From an uncultured Verrucomicrobiales bacterium (GTDB lineage Bacteria; Verrucomicrobiota; Verrucomicrobiia; Verrucomicrobiales; DEV007): DNA of 51,105 bases. Both the position numbers and the translations under genes were made by a program. The number at the start of each line of letters is the position of its first letter. Positions within the stretch are counted from its first letter, which is position 1. The stretch covers positions 1-51,105 of the forward strand of contig CALAHF010000185.1 in assembly GCA_937891465.1 (NCBI GenBank), written 5' to 3'. The notes under the pieces are model-generated. The model did not search any database. It had not been told where the DNA came from and was given only the letters and a program-made list of their open reading frames with translations. Below, in pieces: positions 1,669-51,105 of this stretch.

Positions 1669-4600
1669 CTATTTTTGATTCAGCAGTGCTTCGATCGAAT
1701 AGCGAACAAAGACAAGCTCGCCCGGCGTCTCGTAAACCAGGCCGATTTTGTCATCGCCGATCGCGGTCATGCACGAATACGCGGACGGGCCGGCGTCTAC
1801 TAGCGTGTGCCACTTTTCGGGCCAGGTAAGTCCTTCATCGTTACTAACTTTGATCGTCATTTTGGCGCGGCCTTTGGTTTGCGCGGGATTAGAGAAAAAT
1901 AAAAGCGGTCCGTATTTTTCCGTTTCGACCCGGATCAAGCTGGCCATGCAAACCGGTTCGGGTAGGGCGCTGCGGGAGGTTGAGTGTTCCTGCCACGTCG
2001 CACCCAGATCTTTCGTTGTGTAGATCGCGCGACTACCGCCTCGATTGTCACGGCAGTTGATCATGATCGAACCGTCGGCAAGTTCGACCAACTGCGCTTC
2101 AGTCGTGTCGATTTTTACACCAGTCCCGATCTTCCAAGTCGCACCACGATCTTTAGAATAAATCAGCGTCGAGAACGGTTTGCCGTTCACCGGTTCTTCA
2201 TTTTCTCCGCGAAATTGCGCCGGAAAAACCAGCGTTCCGTCTTTCATGGTTATTCCATTGCCGGGTCCTTGCAGGACGAAGCGCCAGTTCGGATCTTTGA
2301 CTTGTTTCGTGATATTAATCGGTTCACTCCACGTTTTTCCGTCGTCATCACTCTTCGTCAGCATTAGTTGACCCGTTTCATCCGGCTCCAAACCGGGGCC
2401 CGAGCCACGCCAGGATCGCTCGCCGTGGCTCCATGTTGCTGCCACCCAAATCGTCCCGGTCTCTCGATCCACCAGCACTGCCGGGTCACCGATTCCGTCG
2501 TAGCTCCATTTCGAGTCGTCTCCCATGTCCATGATGACTCGCATCGGTTCCCATGTCGTACCGCCGTCTGTGCTGCGGTTCATTCCCACATCGATATCGC
2601 CTGGCAAATCCCCGCCGCGTCGATTTCGATTGTCGTAAACTGCAATCAACGTTCCTGCATTGGTGGTCGCCAGCCCCGGAATCCGCGTCGAGTTCACGCC
2701 GTCCTGACCGAGCGTTCTTAATTTCACGCGATGCTCAGGCTCTATCGCGACCAACCCGGGCGGCATTTTGTCGAGGATTCGCAAATGGTCGATCAACACG
2801 CCGCTTCCCTTTGGTGTGGTTGCAGTCAGCTTCAGTTCCGAAAAATCTGCTTTCAGCGGGATTGCCACGGATGATAGAAACGCGCGGCCGACAACCACTT
2901 TTCCAGCGCCATCAAAAATTTTTGGCCACTCTTCAGAGGCGGCATTTCGCGCATAGACTTTGAATTCAAACGGGGCGCGACTTGTCCAGCGCTCTGCTTG
3001 AAAAGCCAGCACCTTCCCGGATTTTACAGTCTTCGGAAACCGGATCGTCAGCTCACGGTTCTCGCCGCTGAGGAGATGCAGCCCGTGTTTTCCCTTCCAT
3101 GGATGCGTGTCGGAAATTTTCGCATGTCCAGGCGTGGCCGAAAGCGTGATGCCATCCGAAATTAGATCACCTGAAATTTCTCCCGCTTTCACATTCTCAA
3201 ACCCCGTTCCGACGCCTTCAATTTTTTCTTCAGCAACAGGTGGCTTCGCCGGTAAAACCAAAGGCCAGTCGTCCGTTCGAAAGGGCGCGACCGGCAATCC
3301 TGTTTCCGCACAAGTGATCGTCGCTTTTGGATCGTTTTCCCATGCGTAACGAATAGCTTCGATTTTCGAACCAACAGGGTCTGTTCGGCAAACCAACCCT
3401 GTTGGTTCGTTTTGTGTGATTAGCACTTTCTTAAACATCCGATCCTTCCCTGCGACAGAAATTTCAGCGTCGGTGGACAGTTTTACAGGTCGATCAAAGG
3501 TAAGTGCCCCAGACTTCTCTCCGAGTTGCCAACCCGTGAGTCGCGGTGCTTCGGCGACGAAGTCATTTCTATATTCATGTTTTAAAGCGAGCTTCGCCAA
3601 CCGCTCACCGATCGGCTTTTTCGTGGTTGGATGCACATTGGTTGGGTGGCCCACGTCAAACGTGATCGCCATATGCGTGTTCGGGACGAGTGTGTCGATC
3701 TTTGATTGGACTTCGCGAAACGCCGCCCATTCGCGGTTCAGGCCAGGGAGCTGTACGAAGTAAAACGGCAGGTCGTCGTCTTCAAATTCTGTCCGCCATG
3801 ATTCGATCAGCTTCTTGTGTGTCACGAAATTCTTCTTCGAATCGATCGGTGGCGAGCCTGCTCCATCTTCAGTCGCGTTCGATTCGCCCTGATACCAAAT
3901 CACGCCACGGATCGGCATTTTTTCGAAAGGGCGAATGCCGGCTTCGAACAAGAATCCGGGTTCGAAGGGATGATGTGGCGTCGGCGCTGTTTGATTCTCA
4001 GTCCACTTCGTGAGATTCAGTTTCGCCCGTCCTGCGACCCATTTTGGAAGATCAGAATTCTCCAGCCAATTTGGATCCGCCGTGTCATTTGGAATCCACG
4101 CTTCCATCGGAGAACCGCCGACTGCATTGCAAATTAGACCAATTGGGACGCCGGTCTCGGCTTGAAGCATTTTTCCAAAGTGATATGCGACCCCTGAAAA
4201 ATCCGGAACAGAATCTGGCGTTGCGACCTGCCAACCTTCTGATTTGTAAAGATTGTCGGAGAAGGTGTTCCGTAATTGAAGAAGGGGAAATTTGCCGCTT
4301 CCGGGGTGAATCGTCGATACTAGGTTCTGGATTCGGAGATTGGGATTTTTGGAACTCGCGATCGAGTTCTTTGCATCTGCCGTCTGTTTCAGCATCCAGC
4401 GCATGTTGGATTGGCCGGAGCAAATCCAGACATCGCCAATCAAAATGTTTTGTCTTATTATGAGATCATCACCCTGACGAATGAATAGCTCTTGAGGACG
4501 TTCCGTTGGATCTAATGCTGTAATTTCAATTGACCATCGACCGTTCGAATCGGCTGTGGTCTCTTTTTGCTGTCCGCTGAAAGTAACTTCAATGACAGAG

Positions 4601-6222
4601 GCCGGGGGCGCTGTCCCCCAAATTGGAATGGATTGGTGACGCTGCAAAACCATGTTGTCAGTGAATACCGGATCGAGAATCAGTTCCGACTGGTGAGCTT
4701 TTCGCCAGCCTTCGCCACGATTTAGAATGCGACTGAATCGGTCTCTTTCCTCCAATGTCGCATCGGGTGATTTGTCCGCTACATCGGATGCTGATTCATT
4801 TTTTGAGTGATCAACGATTACCCGCTCCTTCACTTCTCCCGTCTTTAAATCCACCCATTCAGTATATCGATGCTTGTCAGTTCGCACCGAGTAACCTCGC
4901 ATTTTTCCTTTTGTGAATTGGGAGAAGGCTCGGTTTTTCCATGCGAGATTTGGTTCTTCAAGCAATGGAACCAAGCTTTCTCCCTGCTGCTGGTCCCAAG
5001 CGCGGGGAGGCACGCCCACCAAATCTGCGAGTGTCGGGTAAATATCAACCAGCTCAACAATCGCATCACAGTCTCCAGACGATTTTTCAGGCGCACGGAT
5101 GATTAATGGCACTCGAGTATCGAGTTCGAAATTTGTGGTCTTCCCCCACAACCCTCGTTCACCGAGATGATAGCCGTGATCGCTCCACAGCACGACGATG
5201 GTATTTTCGGCAAGGCTCTGGGAGTCGAGTTCTGCTAGAACACGGCCAATCTGGGCGTCGATGTAACTGATGCATGCAAGATAAGCGTGCCGGACTTTTC
5301 GTTGATCCGCTTCCAGGATGGGCCCTTTTTTCTGCTGATCAGTGTAACGCCGAAGCTCGCCAGATCCATGCATCGAAATCGATGGAATGCCTTCCGTTTT
5401 CAGAGTCGCTTGGTCGGCAAGCGGGATAGAATTTGTGTCGTAGAGGTCCCAATATTTCTTTGGCGCAATGTAAGGCGAGTGCGGTTTGATGAATCCAACC
5501 GCGAGAAAAAACGGTTTATCGGAATCGGCGAGTTCAATCAAAGATTTGACGGCGTGATCGGCAACTTGGCCATCGTAAAGCACGTTGTCGGCGACATCAG
5601 GTGCTTCAGTTGCCGTACCGAAAACGAGCTTCTTTGTCCAATCATCTGCGCTGGGGTTTTTGGGCTTGTAGATTTTTTCGTAAACGCCTTTCGCTGCTTC
5701 GATTCCTTCTTCAGTGTAGTAGTAACGAGGGCCAGGGCGGAACGTCGGAATGCTCCACGATTTGGGATCGCCAAAGGTGTCTGCGACGGTTCGCGAGCTG
5801 CCTTCAGGAAAAACGCCGTGATAGATTTTTCCCATTGATCGCGAGTGGTAGCCGTGATTTTTAAATAGCTGGGGCAGCGTGACGATGTCGGGATGGATGT
5901 CGCGAAAATGCGTGTGGTTTCCATGAACTTGCGTGGCATCGGGGCGAAGCCCAGTCATCACCGATGCGCGAGACGGTCCGCAAATTGCTTGCTGGCAGTA
6001 GGCGCGATCGAATCGAACACCGGTTGCTGCGAGAGCATCAATGTTCGGAGATTTCGCGATTTTTGATCCGTAGCAACCGAGTTCGCAACGAAGGTCATCG
6101 ATTGCTATGAAGAGAATGTTGGGTGCTTGTTGGGGTTCTCCATAAGGTGGTTTCGCAGCAAATAGCTGAAGTGAGAATGAAACCAATGCCAAAGAGGAAA
6201 TGAAGCGTGAGAGCATTTTCAT
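1669..6222 (-). CDS. Three-domain secreted enzyme: sulfatase, sialate O-acetylesterase, sialidase
   Basis: A 1517-residue protein with an N-terminal signal peptide (about 1-23). Residues about 33-490 form a type I sulfatase: Asp42-Asp43 metal ligands, Cys81-Gly-Pro-Ser-Arg85 (the C-x-P-S-R formylglycine site), and a distal Asp-His near 348. Residues about 515-990 are a sialate O-acetylesterase (SASA) domain with Ser in CSGQSNM near 600 and WYQGESN near 773. A beta-sandwich-like linker spans about 1000-1150. The C-terminal part from about 1175 is a sialidase-type propeller with a TRIP motif (cf. FRIP) and five Asp boxes such as STDGGTTW. The reading frame is continuous, so no frameshift is needed for the fusion. 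A palindromic repeat is inserted in the SASA domain (see 3367-3409). It lies in the sialic acid operon. The combination would let one polypeptide desulfate, deacetylate and desialylate a glycan. Domain calls are firm; substrates are inferred. Confidence 0.9.
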   Translation of the reverse strand: MKMLSRFISSLALVSFSLQLFAAKPPYGEPQQAPNILFIAIDDLRCELGCYGSKIAKSPNIDALAATGVRFDRAYCQQAICGPSRASVMTGLRPDATQVHGNHTHFRDIHPDIVTLPQLFKNHGYHSRSMGKIYHGVFPEGSSRTVADTFGDPKSWSIPTFRPGPRYYYTEEGIEAAKGVYEKIYKPKNPSADDWTKKLVFGTATEAPDVADNVLYDGQVADHAVKSLIELADSDKPFFLAVGFIKPHSPYIAPKKYWDLYDTNSIPLADQATLKTEGIPSISMHGSGELRRYTDQQKKGPILEADQRKVRHAYLACISYIDAQIGRVLAELDSQSLAENTIVVLWSDHGYHLGERGLWGKTTNFELDTRVPLIIRAPEKSSGDCDAIVELVDIYPTLADLVGVPPRAWDQQQGESLVPLLEEPNLAWKNRAFSQFTKGKMRGYSVRTDKHRYTEWVDLKTGEVKERVIVDHSKNESASDVADKSPDATLEERDRFSRILNRGEGWRKAHQSELILDPVFTDNMVLQRHQSIPIWGTAPPASVIEVTFSGQQKETTADSNGRWSIEITALDPTERPQELFIRQGDDLIIRQNILIGDVWICSGQSNMRWMLKQTADAKNSIASSKNPNLRIQNLVSTIHPGSGKFPLLQLRNTFSDNLYKSEGWQVATPDSVPDFSGVAYHFGKMLQAETGVPIGLICNAVGGSPMEAWIPNDTADPNWLENSDLPKWVAGRAKLNLTKWTENQTAPTPHHPFEPGFLFEAGIRPFEKMPIRGVIWYQGESNATEDGAGSPPIDSKKNFVTHKKLIESWRTEFEDDDLPFYFVQLPGLNREWAAFREVQSKIDTLVPNTHMAITFDVGHPTNVHPTTKKPIGERLAKLALKHEYRNDFVAEAPRLTGWQLGEKSGALTFDRPVKLSTDAEISVAGKDRMFKKVLITQNEPTGLVCRTDPVGSKIEAIRYAWENDPKATITCAETGLPVAPFRTDDWPLVLPAKPPVAEEKIEGVGTGFENVKAGEISGDLISDGITLSATPGHAKISDTHPWKGKHGLHLLSGENRELTIRFPKTVKSGKVLAFQAERWTSRAPFEFKVYARNAASEEWPKIFDGAGKVVVGRAFLSSVAIPLKADFSELKLTATTPKGSGVLIDHLRILDKMPPGLVAIEPEHRVKLRTLGQDGVNSTRIPGLATTNAGTLIAVYDNRNRRGGDLPGDIDVGMNRSTDGGTTWEPMRVIMDMGDDSKWSYDGIGDPAVLVDRETGTIWVAATWSHGERSWRGSGPGLEPDETGQLMLTKSDDDGKTWSEPINITKQVKDPNWRFVLQGPGNGITMKDGTLVFPAQFRGENEEPVNGKPFSTLIYSKDRGATWKIGTGVKIDTTEAQLVELADGSIMINCRDNRGGSRAIYTTKDLGATWQEHSTSRSALPEPVCMASLIRVETEKYGPLLFFSNPAQTKGRAKMTIKVSNDEGLTWPEKWHTLVDAGPSAYSCMTAIGDDKIGLVYETPGELVFVRYSIEALLNQK
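3367..3409. repeat. Palindromic repeat copy 1, inside a coding sequence
   Basis: This copy is a near-perfect palindrome with outer arms CGAACCAACAGGGT and ACCCTGTTGGTTCG and a short interior. It is read in frame on the minus strand as about 14 residues (NEPTGLVCRTDPVG) within the esterase domain, near residue 944 of the fusion protein. All other full copies in the window lie outside confident genes or at their starts. Confidence 0.9.
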
Positions 6223-6243
6223 CGTTAAAAAATGAAAGGGAAT

Positions 6244-7161
6244 TTAGTAACCACGCGCGAACTGAATATCGAGCGTTTGGATTTGAGTGTGAAGCGCCGC
6301 GTCCTGAACAGGCAAAACAATGGCATCTTCGTCGGAATCGTTATGATGCGAATGCCACCAGCCGGGAGGCGTTACGAAAACTGATCCGGGTGTCCACATT
6401 GCCTTCACCGGATTGACAATATTTCCATCCGCATCCAGATTCCGACCGATCATTGTGTAAGTGTCAGGACCCGCCGAGACGCACAAGTCGAGCGCGATGG
6501 AATTGTGGCGATGGGCCTTCTGGCGAGTCTGACGCGGCAACAAATTGTAGAGCGACCACATGGTGTGCGTGACCGTTTTTGTGATCGGGCAATCGACATT
6601 CGCCAGTAGAATTCCGTTCCGGTTCTTGTCGTGGCCTTCGTTCTGAGCGCGGACTTTGGCGAGCTCATCTTCGAGGCATTCGTAGCTGAAAAACACAGAG
6701 CGAAATTGGGCAGCATCAGGTTTTGCACCGAGATAGTTGAAGAGAGGTTCGTCGTTCACCCAGTAAAATGCAGTGTCTTCTTCAGCCGTGTGTTTGAAAA
6801 CAGAACCGCCGGGCGTCGCGAAATAATCGCCGGTCTTCCACGTCACGGTTCCCTCGGGCGTTTCGGTTTTTCCGCGTCCGCGAATGCAGAAAAACACCTG
6901 CGAGGCTGATTGCGCCTCGGTTTCGAGGGATTCACCTGGATTGATGTGAACGAAGTTCGCCATCAGACTCGGGCCAGTACACGGATACGGCGTTCCCATT
7001 TGCCCGGCTAAATCGAGCGGGATGACGCGCGTCTCATCGATTTGATGCATCGCAGAAGGGAACAATTCGATCTCGATCTTCGGCATGCGGGGATTCACCG
7101 CCGAGGTGTATTCGAAGTATTCAGTATTCGCCGCCCATGCAGCATTGAGGGATTCGCTCAT
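6244..7161 (-). CDS. Two-cupin protein resembling gentisate/hydroxynaphthoate dioxygenases
   Basis: A 305-residue cytosolic protein with two cupin halves. The first (about 65-135) contains a glycine-rich turn and an FATPGG segment before a His. The second (about 205-290) carries Ala-His-Arg-His and a later Trp-Trp-His-Ser-His-His, giving a good set of metal-binding histidines. Length and layout match bicupin dioxygenases of the gentisate 1,2-dioxygenase type, but an aromatic substrate would be odd here. It sits 4 bases after the sulfatase gene and 21 bases before the fusion gene, so co-transcription is likely. It could instead be a sugar-binding or isomerase-type bicupin. Function within sialoglycan use is unknown. 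Confidence 0.7.
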   Translation of the reverse strand: MSESLNAAWAANTEYFEYTSAVNPRMPKIEIELFPSAMHQIDETRVIPLDLAGQMGTPYPCTGPSLMANFVHINPGESLETEAQSASQVFFCIRGRGKTETPEGTVTWKTGDYFATPGGSVFKHTAEEDTAFYWVNDEPLFNYLGAKPDAAQFRSVFFSYECLEDELAKVRAQNEGHDKNRNGILLANVDCPITKTVTHTMWSLYNLLPRQTRQKAHRHNSIALDLCVSAGPDTYTMIGRNLDADGNIVNPVKAMWTPGSVFVTPPGWWHSHHNDSDEDAIVLPVQDAALHTQIQTLDIQFARGY

Positions 7162-7165
7162 AGAT

Positions 7166-8593
7166 TTATTCTCCGTAAAATTCTTTCAAATGACTCCAAA
7201 CTTCTTTGCTTCCCTTCTTCGGATGTCGTTTCGGATCTGAGACTTCTTTGATGTAGAAATCGACATTTTTAGGATCGAGAAACGGGTCGTTGATCTCCTT
7301 TTGGAAATCTCGCATCGCTTTGAAAAGCTCGTCCTGTTTTGCTTTGTGTGCCGGACTGTTGGCGAGATTTTTGAGTTCGAACGGGTCCGTATCCAAATCG
7401 TAGAGTTCAAATTCTGGTGGATCGACATAGGCCGGATCCCAGACCGCCATGGGGATTTTTGTATTGTTATAGCGCGAAATTGCGACCCCGTTTGTCATCC
7501 GAACGGGGTTGTAGATGAATTTGTAGTGGTCGTCGCGAATTCCAAAAGTCAGATATAGCAAAGTGGATGCCGAGCCGGTATTGAACGTGTGAATGTATTT
7601 CCGACGGGGCAATCTCGGATTCTGTAATTCCTGCAGTGGCGAGCCGACCAGCTCTTTTGGAATTTTGATTCCCGCTTCTCTCAGCACACTCGGCAGAATA
7701 TCCATCGACGAAACCATCGCGTTTTCGACGTGGCCTTTGTAAAACGATTTCGGGAAATTCACGATCATCGGCACCTTCACGCCGCCCTCGTAGCAAGTTG
7801 TTTTTCCACGGGGGAAATCACCGCCGTGATCAGCCATATAAATGACCAGCGTGTTTTCTCGCTGACCCGACTTTTCGAGATCAGCGAGCACCATCCCGAT
7901 TCCTTCGTCGAGCCGGTTCATGCAATTCAGATAGTTTCGCATTTCCTCACGAAGCCGCGGCGTGTCGCAACCGATCCAGGGGAGGGGAGGAATGTCGCCT
8001 TCGACCATTTTAGTTGGATACCCTGCCTTTGATTTTCCAATGAAGGCGCGGTGGGCGTCCGAATAATTGATGATCGCGAGAAACGGTTTATTCTCCTTCT
8101 CCGCATTTTCAAAAATTGTCCTCGCCTGAGCAGCGTATTCCTCGATGGAAAAGGTACTGTTAAAATTGGCCGATTTGATCCCGCGATAATCGATGTAGTC
8201 CTCAACGATGCTCTCGGGGTTCACGTGGGTTTTCCCAATAAAGCCTGTGTAGTAGCCCGCTTCCTGCAGGTAGGCGGGCATGGTTTTAAAGTGTTTGTAG
8301 AAAGCGAAACGATGGGTCGCGAGTCCGATGTGTCCGGTTTGGCGAGTGTAGAGCCCCGTCAAAAATGCTGCGCGAGACGGACTGCAAACGGAATAGGGAA
8401 CATAGGCGCGATCATACCTGACACCGCCCGCTGCGAGCGAATCGAGGAAAGGTGTGTGAACGCGGGTGTCGCCATAGCATCCGATTTGCTCGGAGTTGTC
8501 TTCAGAGACGATGAACAAAATATTCGGCTTTTCTGCAAAAGCATTGAATGCGAAAAGGAATCCGAAAAGTAGGAGCAAAAACGCAGTTTTCAT
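7166..8593 (-). CDS. Secreted sulfatase, heparan N-sulfatase/sulfamidase-like
   Basis: A 475-residue protein with a clear signal peptide (hydrophobic 4-19, cleavage near Ala20). The type I sulfatase signature Cys70-Ser-Pro-Ser-Arg74 is followed by a typical LTGLYTRQTGH segment. Glu31-Asp32 near the N-terminus and Asp-His in MADHGGD provide the calcium-site residues. The overall length and the HPKKGSK-type tail resemble the N-sulfoglucosamine sulfohydrolase branch. Activation needs a formylglycine-generating or anaerobic maturase enzyme, which is not in this window. The start overlaps the stop of the SGNH gene by 4 bases, so they are translationally coupled. The real substrate may be sulfated mucin or glycosaminoglycan sugars. 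Confidence 0.88.
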   Translation of the reverse strand: MKTAFLLLLFGFLFAFNAFAEKPNILFIVSEDNSEQIGCYGDTRVHTPFLDSLAAGGVRYDRAYVPYSVCSPSRAAFLTGLYTRQTGHIGLATHRFAFYKHFKTMPAYLQEAGYYTGFIGKTHVNPESIVEDYIDYRGIKSANFNSTFSIEEYAAQARTIFENAEKENKPFLAIINYSDAHRAFIGKSKAGYPTKMVEGDIPPLPWIGCDTPRLREEMRNYLNCMNRLDEGIGMVLADLEKSGQRENTLVIYMADHGGDFPRGKTTCYEGGVKVPMIVNFPKSFYKGHVENAMVSSMDILPSVLREAGIKIPKELVGSPLQELQNPRLPRRKYIHTFNTGSASTLLYLTFGIRDDHYKFIYNPVRMTNGVAISRYNNTKIPMAVWDPAYVDPPEFELYDLDTDPFELKNLANSPAHKAKQDELFKAMRDFQKEINDPFLDPKNVDFYIKEVSDPKRHPKKGSKEVWSHLKEFYGE

Positions 8594-9261
8594 TTGATTT
8601 CAGTCTTCTTGAGAAGTGCAGCAGTCACCTTTGCAATAATCGCAGCACCGCCGGCGTTCGGGTGAATGTTGTCGGGGAATAGAGCATCTTCATTGCGAAG
8701 CGGCCGCTCCATATCGATTGATTCGATATCCATTTTCTTAACCACTTTCACAATCTCTCGATTTATCTTTTCGATGCGGGCGTCTTCAAAAAACGCGTGA
8801 CCTTTGAACAATGGGGCGAGGGAAGCCCACACAATGATTCGCGGTTTGCTGGCGAGCGATTGGTAGGCGGTGAGTAATTCGATGTAGTCCGTCACGAAAT
8901 CATCCTCGAATTTGTCAAAATCCATCAAGTCATTGATTCCGAGATTGCAGATCACGATGTCGGGTTCGAAAGCCAATGCGTCTTCATGTTCTTTCATGAA
9001 AATGAAGGCGCGCTTCTGTTTGCCTCGCATCGATTTCTTCAGTATGCTGCGCCCCGAATTTCCAAAATTTCTGACTTCAGATTCGGCCCCTAAAATCTGT
9101 TGAAGCTGGGCTGGGTAAGTCCCTTCAGGATCTTTAATCCCATGGCCAAACGTGATTGAATCTCCAATGCACGCGATTTTGACCGCCGGTTTTGCGTCTT
9201 GAGCAATGGATGACTGGAACGCCAAGAGCACTAGGGCGGCTGAACAAAGAAGGGATTTCAT
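8590..9261 (-). CDS. Secreted SGNH/GDSL hydrolase, probable carbohydrate esterase
   Basis: A 223-residue protein if started at the ATG at 9261, which gives a clean signal peptide (MKSLLCS, then a hydrophobic core, cleavage near 20) and an ATGA overlap with the upstream gene. A start 30 bases earlier is possible but would place charged residues before the signal. Block I is Gly33-Asp34-Ser35, the nucleophile. Block III is Gly-Ile-Asn-Asp, and the C-terminal Asp-x-x-His is in DNIHPN. This is the standard SGNH fold of esterases that remove acetyl groups from sugars. In this operon a sialate O-acetylesterase role is the natural guess, in parallel to the SASA domain of the fusion protein. Confidence 0.85.
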   Translation of the reverse strand: MKSLLCSAALVLLAFQSSIAQDAKPAVKIACIGDSITFGHGIKDPEGTYPAQLQQILGAESEVRNFGNSGRSILKKSMRGKQKRAFIFMKEHEDALAFEPDIVICNLGINDLMDFDKFEDDFVTDYIELLTAYQSLASKPRIIVWASLAPLFKGHAFFEDARIEKINREIVKVVKKMDIESIDMERPLRNEDALFPDNIHPNAGGAAIIAKVTAALLKKTEIK

Positions 9262-43727: not shown

Positions 43728-46370
43728 ATGGACTGGCTTCACCCTCAACTTCTGCTACTTGCGATCCCGGCTTTTCTTCTGCTGGTGTGGTTTGATGCGA
43801 AGTCGTCGCATCCGATGTCAGAAAAGCGGCGGCGTTGGCTGTTGATTGTCAGGACGTTGCTGGTGCTGATCGGATTGTTGGCGTTGGCTTCGCCGGCGAG
43901 GGTGGTGAATTCGAATAAGCAGGCTGCGATTTTTGTGATGGATCACTCGCGGTCTGAGGGAGAGGAGGGCTTGCAGAAAGTGTATGAAACCACGGCTGCG
44001 ATCCGAAAGGGGCTATCGGCGGATGTTGAGGCGGGATTTATTGCGGAAGGGCGAGAGTCGCGGGTGCTGGCGTATCCTGGCGAAACGGTGAGTGATGACT
44101 TTTTTGCGAAACCGAATTTGGATTTGATCGAGGAAATTGGTGCAGAATCGAATTTTGCGGCGGCGATTCGGATGGCGAAAGGAATTTTTCCCGGGGGAGC
44201 GTCGCGGCATATTGTATTAGTTAGCGATGGCAATGAGACAACCGGTTCGCTGGAAACGGTCGCGGAGGAAGCGGCGGTCGCGGGGCTGAAAATTCATGCG
44301 ATCGGGGTGAGCGGAACGGCGCGCCCAGACGTGCGGGTGAAGAAGGTGCTGGCGTCGCAATCGAGGCTGAATGAGGGCGCGACGTTGGAATTGACGGCCA
44401 CGATAGAGAGTTCGTTGGCGGGATCAGGGAAGGTGCGGCTTTTTGAGAATGGGCTCGAAGTGGAGAGCCGGGACATTGAAGTAAAGGTGGGAAGTCAGGA
44501 GGAGATGGTTTTTTCCAGAACGCCGGAAAAGCGGAATATTTACAACTATCGGGTCGTGGTGGAAGGGTTTGAGGGAGCGGATGCGATTCCCGAAAACAAT
44601 GAATCGCTCGCGATTGTGGATGTGCGCGGAAAGCCGTTGCTGCTTTATGTCGAAGGTGAGGAGGGCGAGGCGAAGTATTTGCAGCAGGCGATGGACCGCG
44701 AGGGGATTCGGCTGGATGTGCGGACTCCGGAAGGATTGCCCGATAATTTGCGTGAGCTGGCGGGTTACGACGGCTTGATTTTATCCGACATTCCGGCGCA
44801 TCGGATCGGGGAAGCGCGCATGGGAGTGATTCGTGATTATGTAGACAAACTGGGCGGCGGTTTTGTCATGATTGGCGGCATGAATTCATTTGGCGTCGGC
44901 GGATACTATAGGACTCCAATCGAAGATATCCTGCCGGTGAAATTGAAAGCGCCGGATCAGGAAGAGCAGCAGAGTTCTGCGTTGGCGCTGGTGATTGATC
45001 GGTCGGGTTCGATGGCGGGACAGAAGATCGAGATTTGTAAGTCGGCGGCGATCGCGACGGCAGATTTGCTTTCAAAGAAAGATTATATCGGCATCTACGC
45101 GTTTGATTCTCAAGTCCATGTAGTGGTGCCGATGACGAAGGTCAGTTCAACGGCGGCGATTGCGAATCAGATCAATATTCTCAGTTCCGGTGGCGGCACG
45201 AACATTTTCCCGGGGATGCAGGCGGCGAAGGATGAACTGAGCAAAACCAAGGCGAAGGTGAAGCACATGATCGTCCTGACCGACGGACAAACAAGTGGGC
45301 AGGGGTATCAACAGCTAGCGTCACAGTGTCATGCGGATGGGATCACGATTTCGACTGTGGCGGTTGGAGCGGGAGCGCAGGTGGGGCTTTTGCAAAGCAT
45401 TGCGGCGGCTGGTGGCGGGCAGAGTTACGTGACGATGGACCCGACGGCGATCACGCGAATTTTCACTCAGGACACGATGGTTCATACAGGCCGAATGCTT
45501 CGGGAAGAGGCTTTTGTTCCGCAGCTCGTCGAACCGCATCCGATGCTGAAAGATTGGGTGGATGACGCCACTCCACCTTTGCTGGGCTATGTAAAAACAA
45601 ATCGGAAAGCGACGTCGCAAATCCCACTGGTGACTGACGTGGGTGATCCGCTGTTGGCTCACTGGCGATTTGGTTTGGGAAAAGTGACTGCGTTCACCTC
45701 GGATTGTAAAAGTCGCTGGGGAGCGCTGTGGGTGACGGGATGGGATGGATACAGCCCGATGTGGGCTCAGATTTTGCGTGAGACCGCGCGAGCGCCGCAG
45801 GGCCAGAACATGGATTTGCGGCTTTCTGAAAATGGCGAGGAAGTTCGTTTCGAAGTTGATCTGCTCGAAGATGCTGGAACCCGCCGCAATGCCGCGACGG
45901 TGACGGCAGACGTGTTTTTTGTTCCCAGTCACGCGCTTGGGTCCAGCATGAAGCCTGTCGGCGAAGCCATGGCACTCGATCAAGAGGGGCCGGGTTTGTA
46001 TGGCGGTAGCTTTCGCCCCACCGATCCGGGCGTGTTTTTAGTGAGAGCCAGTTCCGGTGCGCGGATGGTTTCGGCGGGGCACGTTCACAATCCGAGTGCG
46101 GAAGCCGCAACGGGGCAGGTGAATGAAGAATTGCTCCGAAAAGTGTGTGAGATGACCGGAGGAACTTATTTGGAAAATGCAGATCAGAAACTGGAACTGA
46201 CCGGTTCAAACGTCTCGCGCTACGTTGAACTCTGGCCGTTTTTGCTGTTCGCGTTTCTTGCGCTGTTCGTGGTGGATTTGTTGATCCGCCGTTGGGAAAA
46301 TCTGCTGGGGCTGTTTGAGCAGGTGGGTGGGATTTTTGGTGGCGGGAAAAAGGCGAGGGCGAAGGGGTAA
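43728..46370 (+). CDS. Membrane protein with two VWA domains and a glutamine-amidotransferase-like segment
   Basis: An 880-residue protein. Two TM segments lie in the first 65 residues (LLLLAIPAFLLLVWF; LLVLIGLLALAS). The first VWA region begins near 66 with Asp-His-Ser-Arg-Ser. About 300-410 (LLYVEGEEGEAKYLQQAM, then a GGGFVMIGGMNSFGVGG turn) resembles the class I amidotransferase-like fold often fused to such proteins. The second VWA near 420 has Asp-Arg-Ser-Gly-Ser and the later Thr and Asp (LTDGQTSG). A C-terminal TM (WPFLLFAFLALFVVDLLI) ends the chain. This is the layout of the largest protein in MoxR/VWA clusters of PVC bacteria. The BatA-like gene is 4 kb upstream rather than adjacent. 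Function unknown. Confidence 0.85.
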   Translation: MDWLHPQLLLLAIPAFLLLVWFDAKSSHPMSEKRRRWLLIVRTLLVLIGLLALASPARVVNSNKQAAIFVMDHSRSEGEEGLQKVYETTAAIRKGLSADVEAGFIAEGRESRVLAYPGETVSDDFFAKPNLDLIEEIGAESNFAAAIRMAKGIFPGGASRHIVLVSDGNETTGSLETVAEEAAVAGLKIHAIGVSGTARPDVRVKKVLASQSRLNEGATLELTATIESSLAGSGKVRLFENGLEVESRDIEVKVGSQEEMVFSRTPEKRNIYNYRVVVEGFEGADAIPENNESLAIVDVRGKPLLLYVEGEEGEAKYLQQAMDREGIRLDVRTPEGLPDNLRELAGYDGLILSDIPAHRIGEARMGVIRDYVDKLGGGFVMIGGMNSFGVGGYYRTPIEDILPVKLKAPDQEEQQSSALALVIDRSGSMAGQKIEICKSAAIATADLLSKKDYIGIYAFDSQVHVVVPMTKVSSTAAIANQINILSSGGGTNIFPGMQAAKDELSKTKAKVKHMIVLTDGQTSGQGYQQLASQCHADGITISTVAVGAGAQVGLLQSIAAAGGGQSYVTMDPTAITRIFTQDTMVHTGRMLREEAFVPQLVEPHPMLKDWVDDATPPLLGYVKTNRKATSQIPLVTDVGDPLLAHWRFGLGKVTAFTSDCKSRWGALWVTGWDGYSPMWAQILRETARAPQGQNMDLRLSENGEEVRFEVDLLEDAGTRRNAATVTADVFFVPSHALGSSMKPVGEAMALDQEGPGLYGGSFRPTDPGVFLVRASSGARMVSAGHVHNPSAEAATGQVNEELLRKVCEMTGGTYLENADQKLELTGSNVSRYVELWPFLLFAFLALFVVDLLIRRWENLLGLFEQVGGIFGGGKKARAKG

Positions 46371-46454
46371 ATCCAGCTTCTTTTCTTGAACACAAGGTGT
46401 GTCGAAAAGAGTTTTCCGTCTGCTGGTTGGCGATCGCTTTACTTGGAACCCGGC

Positions 46455-47100
46455 TCAGAAAATGCCGAGACGGTTCAGCAACAGCGGCGCTCCGATGATC
46501 AGGACTGCTCCGGTGAGATCGAAGAGAATACCGGTTGTAAACATGTCGCGAACCTTCAATCTTCCGGTGCCGTAGACGATCGCGTTCGGCGGGGTGGATA
46601 CGGGGAGCATGAATCCGTAACTCGCCCCGAACGCGCAGGCCATAATCACGAGCGACGGGCTGACATGTTCAAAACCCGGCTGTGCCAGCACCGTCAGCAT
46701 AATGGGAATCACGATGGCGGCGGAGGCGGTATTGGATGAAAACTCGGACATGATGATCCCGAACAGCACCGCGGCCGCCACCAGGGCAAGGACGCCCCAT
46801 TCTGGATTGAAGGCGAACAATCCCAGCGTCTCGGCAAGGCCGGTGTCTGACAGCATCTTGCCGAGGGTCAGTCCGCCGCCGAACAGAAGAATGGTTCCCC
46901 AATCAATGTGTTTCGCGTCGCTTCAGTCCAGGTTTGGTTGTTTTCCCGCGGGCAGGAAAAAGAGAATCAGCGATGCGCCAATGCCCACAACGCTCATGGG
47001 AAGCCGCTCCGCAACCGTTGTGACCCAGGCTGCTTCAGGAAAAGCGATTTTCAACAGTCCGGGAGCAATCCACAGGAAAACCGCGAGGGCAAACACCGCA
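46455..47100 (-). pseudogene. C-terminal remnant of a DASS/SLC13-type anion symporter with a nonsense codon
   Basis: Reading the minus strand from about 47100 gives membrane segments (AVFALAVFLWIAPGLL; VVGIGASLILFFLPAG), then an in-frame TGA at 46925-46923, then DAKHIDWGTILLFGGGLTLG. The family has Trp-x-x-Ala here, so TGA probably replaces TGG. The downstream part carries SNTASAAIVIPI and GFMLPVSTPPNAIVYGTG, the conserved SLC13 motifs, and ends at 46455. About one third of the usual length remains. The 5' part is cut off exactly where kinase-coding sequence begins on the other strand. GC content is higher than in neighbouring genes. Confidence 0.8.
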
Positions 47101-48054
47101 GCGACATCTACAGCCTCGGCGTGCTACTCTACGAGCTACTCACCGGCAAGCCGCCTTTCGACGGGAAGACGCTGGTCTCCGCCGGTTATGAAGAAATGCG
47201 CCGTATCATCCGCGAGGACGAGCCGCCAAAGCCCTCCGTCCGCCTGAGCACCGTCGCCGGCGAAGAACGCACCACTCTCGCCAAGGCCCGCAAAGTCGAT
47301 CCGGCAAAACTCTCCCGCCTCGTTGGGTCCGACCTCGACTGGATCGTGATGAAGGCGATCGAAAAGGACCGCACCCGCCGCTACGAGACGGCCAATGCCT
47401 TCGCCGCAGACATCGGAGCCTTCCTCACTGACGAGCCGGTCAGCGCGACGCCGCCAAGTGCGGGCTACAAGCTCCGAAAGTTCGCCACCCGGAAAAAAGC
47501 GGCAATCGGTGTGGCCGCATTGATCGCGGTCCTCCTCCTGGGCGGGATCGCGGCAACCAGCTGGCAGGCGATTGCGGCGAACCGGGCGCGTGCCCAGTCA
47601 GACCGCGACAAGGAGGACGCCGTGGCGGCTCAGGGTAAGGAGCGCGAGGCGCGCGAGGACGCGGAAGCCATTTCGACCTTCCTCGTCGAGATCTTCCAAA
47701 GCCCGGACCCGGAGCGCGACGACCGCACCATCACGGTGGCCGAGACGCTCGACACCGCCGCGGAGAAACTGGAGACCGACCTCGCTGGCCAGCCTTTTCG
47801 CCGCGTCAAGCTACAGGCCAACCCTCGCCCGGACCTACCAAGCCCTCGGCCTCCACCGGGAGGCCATCCCGCTGCTGGAGAAAGTGCGGGACTACTTTCT
47901 CGCCGCGGCTGACTTTGGTCCGGAGCACCCGGACACGCTCACGGTGATGAACAACCTGACGACTTCCTACCACGTCGTCGGCCGCCGGGACGAGGCGCTC
48001 AAGATGCAGGAGGAGGTACTAGATCTTTACCGCAAGGTGCTGGGTCCGGAGCAC
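47100..48054 (+). pseudogene. Truncated, frameshifted Ser/Thr kinase-TPR protein
   Basis: The frame begins within kinase subdomain IX (Ser-Asp-Ile-Tyr-Ser-Leu-Gly), so the ATP-binding and catalytic-loop parts are missing. The rest of the kinase lobe, a TM segment (AAIGVAALIAVLLLGGIAA) and a linker follow. At about 47820 one extra A shifts the frame: the sequence continues in the next frame as TLARTYQALGLHREAIPLLE and TPR units, up to LGPEH at 48054. With the A removed the join reads naturally. The layout kinase-TM-TPR is typical of planctomycete and verrucomicrobial kinases. High GC. Non-functional as it stands. Confidence 0.82.
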
Positions 48055-48306
48055 GTCGATGCGGATGCCATCGAGATCGCCGCTCCGATCGAAAAAGCAG
48101 ACGAACTGCTCGCCGTGCACGAAGCGCTCGACGCCCTCGCCGAACACGATGCTCGCAAGGCAGAGCTGGTGAAGTTGCGCTACTTCGTGGGCCTCACTAT
48201 AGACGAAGCTGCCGAAGTGCTCGGCGTCTCCGCTCCCGCCGCTAAGCGCGACTGGACCTATGCCCGCGCTTTTCTTTTCCGGACGATCCAGGAGGCCGAA
48301 AAGTGA
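48055..48306 (+). pseudogene. C-terminal remnant of an ECF sigma factor fused to TPR remnant
   Basis: Directly after the TPR part, in the same frame, comes a helical stretch (AVHEALDALAEHDARKAEL) and the sigma region 4 helix-turn-helix (KLRYFVGLTIDEAAEVLGVS, then AKRDWTYARAFLF). This is the ECF type that usually precedes kinase-TPR genes in PVC genomes. Region 2 and the linker are absent. The order is reversed relative to the usual sigma-kinase pair, so it probably results from a deletion joining two adjacent modules. The stop is a TGA at 48304. Confidence 0.8.
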
Positions 48307-48465
48307 ACCCTCGCAAATCTGGAAAAATGGATCAAGCCAGCTTCTTGATCATTGGATGCTTCGAAATGAGCTTTCCATCCACATTCGGTCGACTGCGGCA
48401 CCTTCTTTCTTATTTCTAAAAAGTAGGCTGGCAATCTGAGAACTTGAGGCCGAAGATTCCCTGCA

Positions 48466-50379
48466 ATGAAATCCAAGCTCCATTCAATCTGGTCTGCGCT
48501 CCGAAGTCGCTTCGGAGTGTTCGGATTGTTGCTTGTTGCCGGAGTGATCGCGGTTGGATTCTTTGTCGATCTAGATATCCTAACGAAGGAGACATCCGAA
48601 GTAAATGGCATCCGGGAAAAATATGAGGCAGGCGATAAGCTGAGCATTCGCGAGCGAATCGAGCTTGGGAACTGGGATGCCGAATTGGGGATCGGGTTCT
48701 TGTGTGTGATTTTACTGGGCTCATGCTGGTTGTGGGCGCGAAAACTTCCAGAGAACAACGGGTTAAAGATCGATCGCCGGAAGTTGTCATGGAAGTTTTG
48801 GCTGCCATTGCTGCTCGCTGTAGTTTTGGCGGGGAATTTCAGGGCCCCGCGATTGGATCACAGCTTGTGGAATGATGAAGAGCTTGCCGTTCGAAAATAC
48901 ATCGTCGGCAGCTATGTCGTCGATCCAGCGACAGGGAATTTGGAATTCAACCCCGTTTCCTGGGAGCGAACGTTTTTCTACAGTCTGAGTGGTAACAATC
49001 ACATTGTTCAAAGTGTCATGAGTCGCATCGGTAATTCGGTGTGGGCAAAAGCCACCGGTGCAGAGAAAGGCGCGTTCAGCGAGTCGGCACTTCGAATGGG
49101 ATCTCTCATTGCAGCGCTGGCGACAGTTGCGCTGTTCGGTTTTTGGTTGGCGCGAGAGGGGCACCCCGTTGCAGGGATCACGGGTGCTTTCATTCTTGCG
49201 CTGAATCCATGGCATATTCGGTATGCGGTTGAGGCCCGCGGGTATTCAGTGCTCTTGTTGTTTGTCGTTTTGCTCTTCTTTTGTTTGCATCCCGCCCTGC
49301 TGACAAACCGGTGGCGATGGTGGATCGGCTTTGGCGCAGCGCAAACCATGGCATTGCTGAGTTTTGCGGCTTCGCTTTTATTGATCGCTCCGTTGAACCT
49401 GGTGGTTCTCGTTCTATTGGCCAAAGGCCGAAACGGTTACGGTTTTTGGCGTTGGGCGTTTGTCTGCGCCTGTGGAGCGGGATTGGTCGGGTTTTTCATG
49501 CTTCCGACAATTATCGGGTCTATGGGATGGCTCAGTACGCTGCACGAAGTTGAATTAAACCGCAGCGAGTGGCCCAGAGAGCTCTGGGGGCACATGATGC
49601 TCGGGACGCATTGGTTTACGAGCAACCCTAAATTCGAAGACGGTATCGGAATTCGAAATATGTTGGATTCGGGCGTTGCCATGCAGGTTTTGATTACAGT
49701 GGGAATCCCGTTGCTTGCCCTTGTGGGAATTGGGATTGCCATTGCAAAGAATGCCGCTGCGAGATTGCATATTTTTGTGATGGCCGGTGCGATCCTTGTC
49801 ATTGGAATGTACCGGTCTTTCAGTGATACACCGTTCCACATTTGGTATGCGATTTACCTCCTCCTGCTTTTCATTGTTGCGTTCGGATTTCTGGGCGAGG
49901 CGGCGACATTATTATTTAAAATTAAAGCGTCTCGCCGGGGAATCGTTCAGGCGATTGGAGTTGTCGTTGTGGTAGGGTTTTATGGGTGGATTTCGCAGGC
50001 GCCGCGAGAGAGTATTGTAAAATTTGAACGTCATCCGATGCGGGCCGCTGTCGGGAAAGTGCGTGGCGATAAAATACCCGCAGTGGATGCTGGTGAAGGC
50101 CTCGTAACGGTTTCGTTTGGTTCAGGGGCGAAGCAATTGCAGTCCTACGATCCCCGGGTTCGTTCTCCCAAAACACTGCAGGAGTTTGAGGGGACTCGCG
50201 TTCAGGCCAGAAAAAATGGTGATCGACTGGTTGTTTATGTGACGGGGCCTTTGCATATCAAACTCTCCAAACCCGAAATTCTCGCGGTGTTGGAAGACAA
50301 AAAACAATTTAAAAACCGTGGTTTGGTGAAGGGAATTGAATCGTTTTGGGGCATCCAAATTTACGAAGCGAAAAAGTAA
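48466..50379 (+). CDS. GT-C type membrane glycosyltransferase (ArnT/PMT-like)
   Basis: A 637-residue inner-membrane protein with about 10-12 TM segments. The first periplasmic loop has SLWNDEELAVRKYI near 135-150, with the acidic pair used by GT-C enzymes to bind the lipid-phosphate sugar donor. The loop-helix NPWHIRYAVEARGYS is also typical of this class. The C-terminal 130 residues are soluble and probably periplasmic. It transfers a sugar from a polyprenyl carrier to lipid A, a protein or a polymer; the acceptor is unknown. It starts 160 bases after the graveyard region and is followed by two repeat copies. Confidence 0.82.
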   Translation: MKSKLHSIWSALRSRFGVFGLLLVAGVIAVGFFVDLDILTKETSEVNGIREKYEAGDKLSIRERIELGNWDAELGIGFLCVILLGSCWLWARKLPENNGLKIDRRKLSWKFWLPLLLAVVLAGNFRAPRLDHSLWNDEELAVRKYIVGSYVVDPATGNLEFNPVSWERTFFYSLSGNNHIVQSVMSRIGNSVWAKATGAEKGAFSESALRMGSLIAALATVALFGFWLAREGHPVAGITGAFILALNPWHIRYAVEARGYSVLLLFVVLLFFCLHPALLTNRWRWWIGFGAAQTMALLSFAASLLLIAPLNLVVLVLLAKGRNGYGFWRWAFVCACGAGLVGFFMLPTIIGSMGWLSTLHEVELNRSEWPRELWGHMMLGTHWFTSNPKFEDGIGIRNMLDSGVAMQVLITVGIPLLALVGIGIAIAKNAAARLHIFVMAGAILVIGMYRSFSDTPFHIWYAIYLLLLFIVAFGFLGEAATLLFKIKASRRGIVQAIGVVVVVGFYGWISQAPRESIVKFERHPMRAAVGKVRGDKIPAVDAGEGLVTVSFGSGAKQLQSYDPRVRSPKTLQEFEGTRVQARKNGDRLVVYVTGPLHIKLSKPEILAVLEDKKQFKNRGLVKGIESFWGIQIYEAKK

Positions 50380-50861: not shown

Positions 50862-51105
50862 ATGTCTACGCATTCCCGCGCTTCATCAGTGATGCACTCT
50901 GCTCGTTTTCAAGGGTTCGTTTCAGCTCTGCTGCTGCCCTCCCTTGGTTTATTTTCAGTCCCGACGATGGCAAATCCATCGGGAGGAATCGTAGTTCATG
51001 GAGGCGCTGAAATTGGAGAGGGTCTCAATGGACACCTTTCGATTCTGCAAAGCACTGACAAAGCGATCATCAACTGGGCTGATTTCTCGATTGGCAAGGG
51101 AGAGG
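50862..51105 (+). CDS. N-terminus of a two-partner-secretion (FHA/hemagglutinin-type) exoprotein, 3' partial
   Basis: The ATG at 50862 opens a frame that is uninterrupted to the window end (81 codons). An in-frame ATG 30 bases later is an alternative. A signal peptide with hydrophobic core FVSALLLPSLGLFSVP precedes a mature start NPSGGIVVHGG. The following GHLSILQSTDKAIINWADFSIGKGE matches the TPS domain signature of filamentous-hemagglutinin-type proteins (T/S-D-x-A-I-I-N-W-x-x-F-x-I-G). Such proteins cross the outer membrane through a TpsB partner, which is not in the window. They are usually adhesins or surface polymers several hundred to thousands of residues long. Confidence 0.85.
   Translation, partial: MSTHSRASSVMHSARFQGFVSALLLPSLGLFSVPTMANPSGGIVVHGGAEIGEGLNGHLSILQSTDKAIINWADFSIGKGE

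Follow-up and report, generated by a model that had tools for sequence, protein, structure and literature searches.

The region from 46455 to 48306 of the window, a GC-rich stretch of approximately 2 kb, is probably the decayed remainder of probably acquired genes and not a working system. The window, which was the DNA examined in this study, comprises the whole of contig C185 (51,105 bases) in a 5.97-Mb draft genome of 229 contigs and 95.6% completeness. Three gene pieces were found in the region as follows: the end of a DASS anion transporter gene on the minus strand; a part of a Ser/Thr kinase-TPR gene on the plus strand; and the end of an ECF sigma gene on the plus strand. All three had been proposed by a sequence-only reading of this DNA, and all three were recovered by profile matches, reading frames and alignments to relatives. 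The same reading called them unrelated fragments, which is not supported for the kinase and the sigma factor, as such genes form one intact pair at two loci in related genomes (L085 and L089). In kind, the region most likely represents ordinary gene decay of a kinase-sigma pair beside a transporter stub.

The central piece (47097..48057, plus strand) corresponds to the middle of a Ser/Thr kinase-TPR gene, as indicated by profile matches and by DNA and protein identity, and includes the end of the kinase domain, a hydrophobic segment and the first TPRs. Positions 47097-47822 encode the kinase domain end, the hydrophobic stretch and a charged part, and positions 47788-48306 give TPR_12/TPR_10 matches followed by a Sigma70_ECF match. 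The kinase and TPR readings lie in different frames separated by a frame change near 47820, which bears out the earlier description of a kinase-TPR fragment disrupted there. As a Ser/Thr kinase (PF00069), the piece did not qualify; it covered positions 178-252 of the 263 in the Pkinase profile and scored 26.3 bits against a cut-off of 31.7. The N lobe and the catalytic loop HRDxKP are absent, and similarity begins at RSDIYSLG. The closest DNA match, on contig C500 of genome G008, was 74% identical in a 971-column alignment (47096-48063), and JAHEDC010000462 was 72% identical in protein.

The piece to the left (46455..47111, minus strand) is the 3' part of a gene of a DASS-family anion symporter whose 5' part is missing, as determined by profile matches and alignment to relatives. 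This tail of 218 residues shows one continuous homology across an in-frame TGA at 46923-46925, as the sequence-only reading had noticed. The piece after the TGA matched Na_sulph_symp with 79.3 bits (cut-off 27), and the test for a full-length DASS protein (TIGR00785) failed on this same piece, with 96.5 bits against a cut-off of 198.6 over profile positions 298-438 of 444. The 63-residue piece before the TGA has no family match alone and aligns to DASS relatives when the stop is read as X. The nearest DASS tails with long open frames were 53% identical over the tail and were found in two of the 73 other family genomes (G049 and G039); in a wider sample from the order, 48 of 385 other genomes had a match to the tail at E<=1e-25.

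The first join, at which the DASS piece (minus strand) meets the kinase piece (plus strand), was placed at 47088..47111 from the limits of similarity to either gene. The DNA similarity to kinases begins between 47093 and 47103, mostly at 47096, and the DASS protein similarity reaches to approximately 47111; thus, the transporter and kinase frames do meet within a few bases near 47100, as was first described. In seven kinase relatives, just 5-7 of 15 bases match before approximately 47097, and the match holds from there onward. The DASS and kinase pieces are divergent and both lack their 5' ends, so one deletion between divergent neighbours would suffice, and this join may represent a second deletion of that kind. 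With no DASS relative closer than about 53% identity, the join could not be placed as a short-homology join. At no locus examined did a DASS gene adjoin a kinase gene or a kinase-sigma pair. Leaving aside the loci of the window itself, a DASS match was obtained at just one of the loci examined, L082 (33.8% identity), which had been chosen for another gene, and the idea of DASS as a kinase partner was dropped. Because no examined locus pairs DASS with the kinase-sigma genes, the arrangement of all three genes side by side is conjectural, and the DASS piece is possibly of separate origin.

The piece to the right (48049..48306, plus strand) is the 3' end of an ECF sigma gene and includes the linker and region 4 with the stop codon, with region 2 missing, according to the Sigma70_ECF profile and identity to relatives. 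The requirements of an ECF sigma factor (PF07638/TIGR02999, regions 2 and 4) were not satisfied, since only positions 117-183 of the 185 in the Sigma70_ECF profile were covered and the TIGR02999 score was 71.3 bits against a cut-off of 126.15. The piece is 77-78% identical to the sigma factors of L085, L089 and L098. Moreover, it continues the TPR piece in frame, which amends the initial description of fragments joined edge to edge. This second join lies at 48043..48063, where the TPR motif G-P-E-H runs into the sigma linker V-D-A-D; it was delimited by match limits, with one kinase match stopping at 48063 and one sigma match beginning at 48043, and by the motif in relatives. The TPR copies displayed for relatives carry G-x-E-H followed mostly by P-D/E-T-L. 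Among the seven sigma linkers displayed, exact G-x-E-H was present in three, namely GGVEHV (L089), SGQEHV (L048) and GKEHV (L047), and the other four showed the near variants GAERV (L085), NAEHI (L098) and GVAHV (L104 and L096). As the join falls in a stretch that both parent genes could encode in the same phase, an in-frame fusion would follow by itself. To judge from these aligned motifs, a join at G-x-E-H, common to kinase TPRs and some sigma linkers, would explain the fusion.

The relation between the kinase and sigma pieces was addressed through gene order in relatives. A scan of the genome collection with the kinase piece found 142 relatives, 80 loci were kept, and sigma genes were sought at them with two sigma queries. 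At 31 of the 80 loci, a same-strand sigma gene preceded the kinase gene by no more than 300 bp. An intact sigma gene directly downstream was observed at only two, L085, where the kinase frame occupies 4034-7651 and the sigma gene begins at 7644 (an overlap of 8 bases), and L089, where the kinase frame occupies 5131-8637 and the sigma gene begins at 8634 (an overlap of 4 bases). A truncated sigma gene directly downstream was found at two more, L127 (4 positions past the kinase end) and L096, in which the sigma piece begins where the kinase tail frame ends and the tail frame itself follows an in-frame stop. Other placements were 2.4 kb downstream (L098), 1.6 kb upstream (L108) and on the other strand only (three loci), and the remaining 40 loci, nine of them cut inside the kinase frame, had no sigma gene within the stretch examined.

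L085 and L089, which belong to genomes of the host's own family (G061 and G067), hold the second and sixth closest kinases, with 67% and 64% identity to the window piece, and their sigma tails are 77% identical to that of the window. Both loci encode complete kinase and TPR domains, a complete Sigma70_ECF domain is present in L085, and the L089 sigma factor is 74% identical to that of L085 over residues 1-179. Among the seven closest kinases, a sigma gene was seen only at these two loci; L086 and L090 are complete and lack one, and L084, L087 and L088 run off the ends of their stretches. In the window, the kinase piece comes first and on the same strand as the sigma piece, exactly as in L085 and L089. 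Because the two intact pairs share this order and strand, the kinase and sigma pieces were read as one pair with an internal deletion. The comparison suggests that they are probably one gene pair minus the kinase tail and the sigma front, and we infer that the two genes were originally adjacent and that the kinase end and sigma start were deleted.

An unlikely alternative is that two neighbouring sigma-first modules existed and that a deletion began within the TPR part of one kinase gene and reached into the sigma gene of the next module. The far commoner occurrence of sigma upstream than downstream of the kinase (31 of 80 loci) speaks for it and counts against a single pair, and the host's own contig C214 holds a sigma gene, a kinase gene and a second kinase frame in a row. 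On the other hand, it is directly behind the kinase that the window's type of sigma gene stands in L085 and L089, and, among sigma factors at least 70% identical to that of L085, L104 alone provides a case directly upstream of a kinase; those of L096, L127 and L098 are found 0.6-3 kb downstream of one, and the 10-kb stretch examined for L185 contains no kinase. Tandem modules would also require a second module of which nothing else survives. Of the earlier proposal of deletion between related modules, the decayed and deleted state of the DNA stands, and a deletion between modules is possible, with a deletion inside one pair being the simpler course.

The composition of the region is unlike that of its neighbours, as had been proposed, and the 500-base GC and GC3 checks placed the main pieces above the host range. 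GC in 500-base windows rose to 0.68 inside the region, compared with a contig mean of 0.522 (sd 0.036). The GC3 values were 0.734 for the main DASS piece, 0.819 for the kinase, 0.836 for the TPR and 0.714 for the sigma piece, and 20 host genes had a mean of 0.555 (sd 0.035, range 0.496-0.627). Four of the five pieces fell outside the host range; the 171-base 5' DASS piece (0.596) fell within it, and both flanking genes are of normal composition. In L085, the sigma gene has a GC of 0.65 and the kinase gene 0.57 on a contig at 0.518. The two L089 genes are both at 0.52, close to the 0.518 of their contig stretch, and the C214 module is at 0.51. The GC-richness may thus be partly a property of the gene pair itself, as in L085, though not in L089 or C214. 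Furthermore, when seven candidates per genome were scored across the order, close kinases (E<=1e-70) were present in 14 of 386 sampled genomes including the host's own. The 13 matching genomes among the 385 others were labelled as four families, with a best identity of 74%, and this patchy distribution agrees with gain and loss. The proposal of acquired DNA is supported by the composition and by the patchy close kinases, with the caveat that the high GC is perhaps partly the pair's own.

Searches whose queries were the retained pieces alone did not find a fuller copy in the host's own assembly, and the full-length sources sought elsewhere in the genome did not appear. The next best matches were a kinase (54%) and a sigma factor (44-45%), both on C214 with the sigma gene upstream, and DASS matches of at most 33%; one further weak kinase match was on C38. 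At these identities, the C214 module was ruled out as a source. The C214 module itself (L005, 236-4971) consists of a sigma gene, a 1076-aa kinase gene and then a second kinase frame, with at least 300 identical bases 3008 bases apart, and its doubled kinase reflects a tandem duplication of recent date or an artefact of the assembly. Two kinds of carrier were also considered. Twenty plasmid records all had less than 60% identity to the kinase piece, the best being a Paludisphaera borealis plasmid with 53.9% over 85% of the query, and a plasmid carrier was rejected. Four viral-contig stretches fit a search pattern and none encoded a relative, and a viral carrier was likewise rejected.

Assembly or sequencing errors at the joins, the stop or the frame change might hide intact genes. 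The genome is a draft of 229 contigs, and single-base defects are typical products of such errors. However, base errors cannot remove the kinase front and back, the sigma front and the transporter front. Moreover, no second copy of the retained pieces, the only queries used, lies on other contigs; the joins share at most about 12 bases, which would be short for an assembler overlap; and the flanking genes are normal in composition. An explanation by errors is accordingly quite improbable.

Substitutions were compared between the window pieces and their relatives. In seven kinase comparisons, pN was 0.169-0.252 and pS was 0.462-0.864; in three sigma comparisons, the values were 0.113-0.149 and 0.491-0.834; and in two DASS comparisons, they were 0.322-0.325 and 0.596-0.720. 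Two comparisons between intact kinases gave pN/pS pairs of 0.183/0.609 and 0.196/0.853, to which the window kinase is similar. The excess of pS over pN would point to decay that is not old, yet it mostly mirrors the long history before decay and hints only faintly at a recent date. The same values bear on the conceivable reading that the fused TPR-sigma4 frame (at most 47788-48306) encodes a new protein with a function, such as a decoy or a TPR protein that binds DNA. In its favour, the fusion keeps the reading frame, which stays open as far as the stop codon of sigma, and the substitutions show constraint. Such constraint is, however, equally expected from the time before decay; no start site has been shown and no other strain was found in which conservation could be seen; and region 4 alone makes no sigma factor. 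On this sequence comparison, a functional fusion would be very improbable indeed.

Taken together, these data are best explained, and with reasonable though not high confidence, by a non-functional remainder of acquired DASS and kinase-sigma genes that was trimmed by deletions. The source DNA would have come, probably by acquisition, from a member of the Verrucomicrobiales, or a near relative, with a higher GC content, in which an ECF sigma gene overlapped the end of a large gene for a membrane Ser/Thr kinase-TPR protein and a DASS anion transporter gene stood in front of the pair in the opposite direction. One deletion would have removed the back of the kinase gene and the front of the sigma gene by pairing of the short G-x-E-H coding motif, and the fusion would be in frame because the two genes carry this motif in one and the same codon phase. 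A further deletion would have removed the facing 5' parts of the transporter and kinase genes, and a nonsense change and a frame change could have arisen before or after the deletions. As the kinase catalytic loop and sigma region 2 are lacking and less than half of the transporter is left, the remnant is expected to do nothing. Because half of the kinase loci show no sigma gene and no more than three of the seven linkers carry the motif exactly, this scenario is held less firmly, and the tandem-module alternative more, than they would otherwise be.

The borders of the region were examined in view of the earlier suggestion of an integration hot spot. The left border is an intact host gene for a VWA-domain membrane protein (43728..46370, plus strand; Pfam VWA, 104 bits), for which 13 genomes of the family and order contain full-length counterparts at 55-73% identity; the single genome available from the same genus has a copy that is 86% identical over residues 1-633, and the contig there ends inside the gene. 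The right border is an intact host gene for a membrane glycosyltransferase-like protein with a PMT_2 domain (48466..50379, plus strand; Pfam, 26.1 bits, equal to the cut-off), homologues of which were found in 25 of 37 genomes including the host's own, none of them exceeding 38% identity across most of the protein. The longest word common to the flanks is a 10-bp direct repeat, CCAGCTTCTT, with a left copy at 46373..46382 and a right copy at 48337..48346. Looked at after the fact, this word may mark a duplicated target or be coincidental, as it was equalled in 13 of 2000 shuffles and at 61 of 3000 random pairs of contig places. No tRNA was present in the window, and no Pfam match to an integrase or transposase above the cut-off was obtained among ORFs of at least 50 aa in 46371-48465. 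The suggestion of a hot spot thus received nothing beyond this weak repeat.

An empty site was not found for comparison, as the same-genus contig stops inside the VWA gene and the other relatives are too distant. When the five nearest ORFs downstream of the VWA gene, up to 6 kb away, were compared, they differed among ten relatives, and no two of these ORF sets matched each other. The sole match was between the glycosyltransferase-like protein of the window and one in G013 (36.6% over 191 residues), which sits one gene further on, behind a minus-strand gene. This hints that the two border genes were once neighbours, though the glycosyltransferase-like protein family has many paralogues. The synteny beyond the VWA gene is variable, which does not prove a hot spot.

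Two further features of the window were observed. Twelve imperfect, REP-like 46-base repeats, approximately one per 4 kb, lie at 3366, 10409, 13452, 16605, 16732, 23149, 30097, 36727, 39953, 43604, 43658 and 50392, and none lies inside 46455-48306. Most are outside long ORFs, those at 3366, 23149 and 39953 being inside ORFs, and the three that were tested as DNA fold into hairpins better than shuffles do (z -3.9 to -5.1). The repeats had no Rfam match, and an RNA element was rejected for the window as a whole, in which no Rfam match reached gathering scores. In addition, the contig ends at 50862-51105 inside an ORF that by eye resembles the N-terminus of a two-partner-secretion exoprotein and whose 81 residues had no Pfam match.

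Broken sigma genes were surveyed among 55 sigma matches besides that of the window; nine with an open frame of less than 140 aa were inspected singly, the other 46 being left aside. Three were cut by a contig end (L219, L224 and L225). Two in G010 contained a frame change (L218 and L220), for which draft errors are possible, and two were sigma tails whose front was missing inside the contig (L221 in G061 and L207 in G067). L222 was a weak sigma tail (39%), and L223 yielded no sigma match, with its kinase in two pieces. Broken sigma genes inside contigs therefore occurred at four places in three relatives. The L207 place is the same as L089 4694-4903 (minus strand; match 4900-4703), where a relic sigma gene stands beside the intact kinase-sigma pair; its reading TLQATALVHKALDALAEHD joins two V-H-E-A places of the intact sigma factor and looks like a shortening within the sigma gene. 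Separately, L096:8213-11269 (MAG Bin_38_5) contains three truncated sigma starts, 90-96% alike, behind a kinase gene. These are followed by a gene lacking a Pfam match with an HNH gene, another gene lacking a match with a PIN gene, and a 42-bp minisatellite that precedes a full-length sigma gene of another type. A fourth truncated 5' copy is at L127:8614-9436 (MAG Bin_38_5). The L096/L127 array may be an insertion point or duplicated debris.

As three or more relatives also contain broken sigma genes, the likely backdrop is ordinary birth-and-death within a patchily distributed family of regulatory genes. The remnant suggests that regulatory pairs of kinase and sigma genes are gained and lost in this bacterial order, and a kinase-first gene order is shown to exist alongside the commoner sigma-first order. 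A bolder and rather improbable reading is that the kinase-sigma boundary is a recurrent point of breaking and insertion in Verrucomicrobiota, at which short TPR/sigma coding motifs favour deletions and truncated 5' ends of sigma genes pile up, each with other DNA behind it in one genome (L096). If so, the window would be one outcome of a process that could make chimeric regulators like the TPR-sigma4 frame, and a repeatedly breaking boundary would provide a natural test bed for short coding repeats that drive the loss and fusion of signalling genes. A literature search by titles and the beginnings of abstracts, with most subscription papers outside its scope, returned no account of the decay of such modules in Verrucomicrobiota. 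By itself, the remnant is an ordinary relic of little weight, and it serves as a warning that relic pieces should not be annotated as independent genes.

The intact relatives resemble known kinase-controlled sigma factors. According to a review (PMC8103513), in ECF sigma factors encoded beside Ser/Thr kinases, uncharged residues take the place of the acidic DAED motif in region 2, and phosphorylation of a threonine or serine there activates the factor, examples being EcfP-PknT of ECF43 and EcfK-PknS. In 52 sigma match rows aligned by eye, the DAED place read QATA in 20, QPTA in 18 and other residues in 14; a threonine stood at the second or third position in all 52, and the acidic first position was kept in nine. 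By analogy, the intact relatives likely encode a kinase-controlled sigma factor. Like EcfP-PknT and EcfK-PknS, they pair an ECF sigma factor with a Ser/Thr kinase and carry a threonine at the DAED place; unlike these systems, nine of the 52 retain the acidic first residue. The window itself differs from them in that neither gene is whole and the part of the sigma factor with the phospho-acceptor is deleted. With genomic islands and hot spots, the region shares GC-rich DNA between two host genes; it differs in that the scans found no integrase, transposase or tRNA and the repeat ends are unconvincing. The region agrees with pseudogene remnants of horizontally acquired genes, with which it shares foreign composition, truncation, nonsense and frame changes and the lack of a fuller genome copy. 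No essential difference from such remnants was apparent, and the detail of interest is the in-frame fusion at a motif common to two neighbouring genes.
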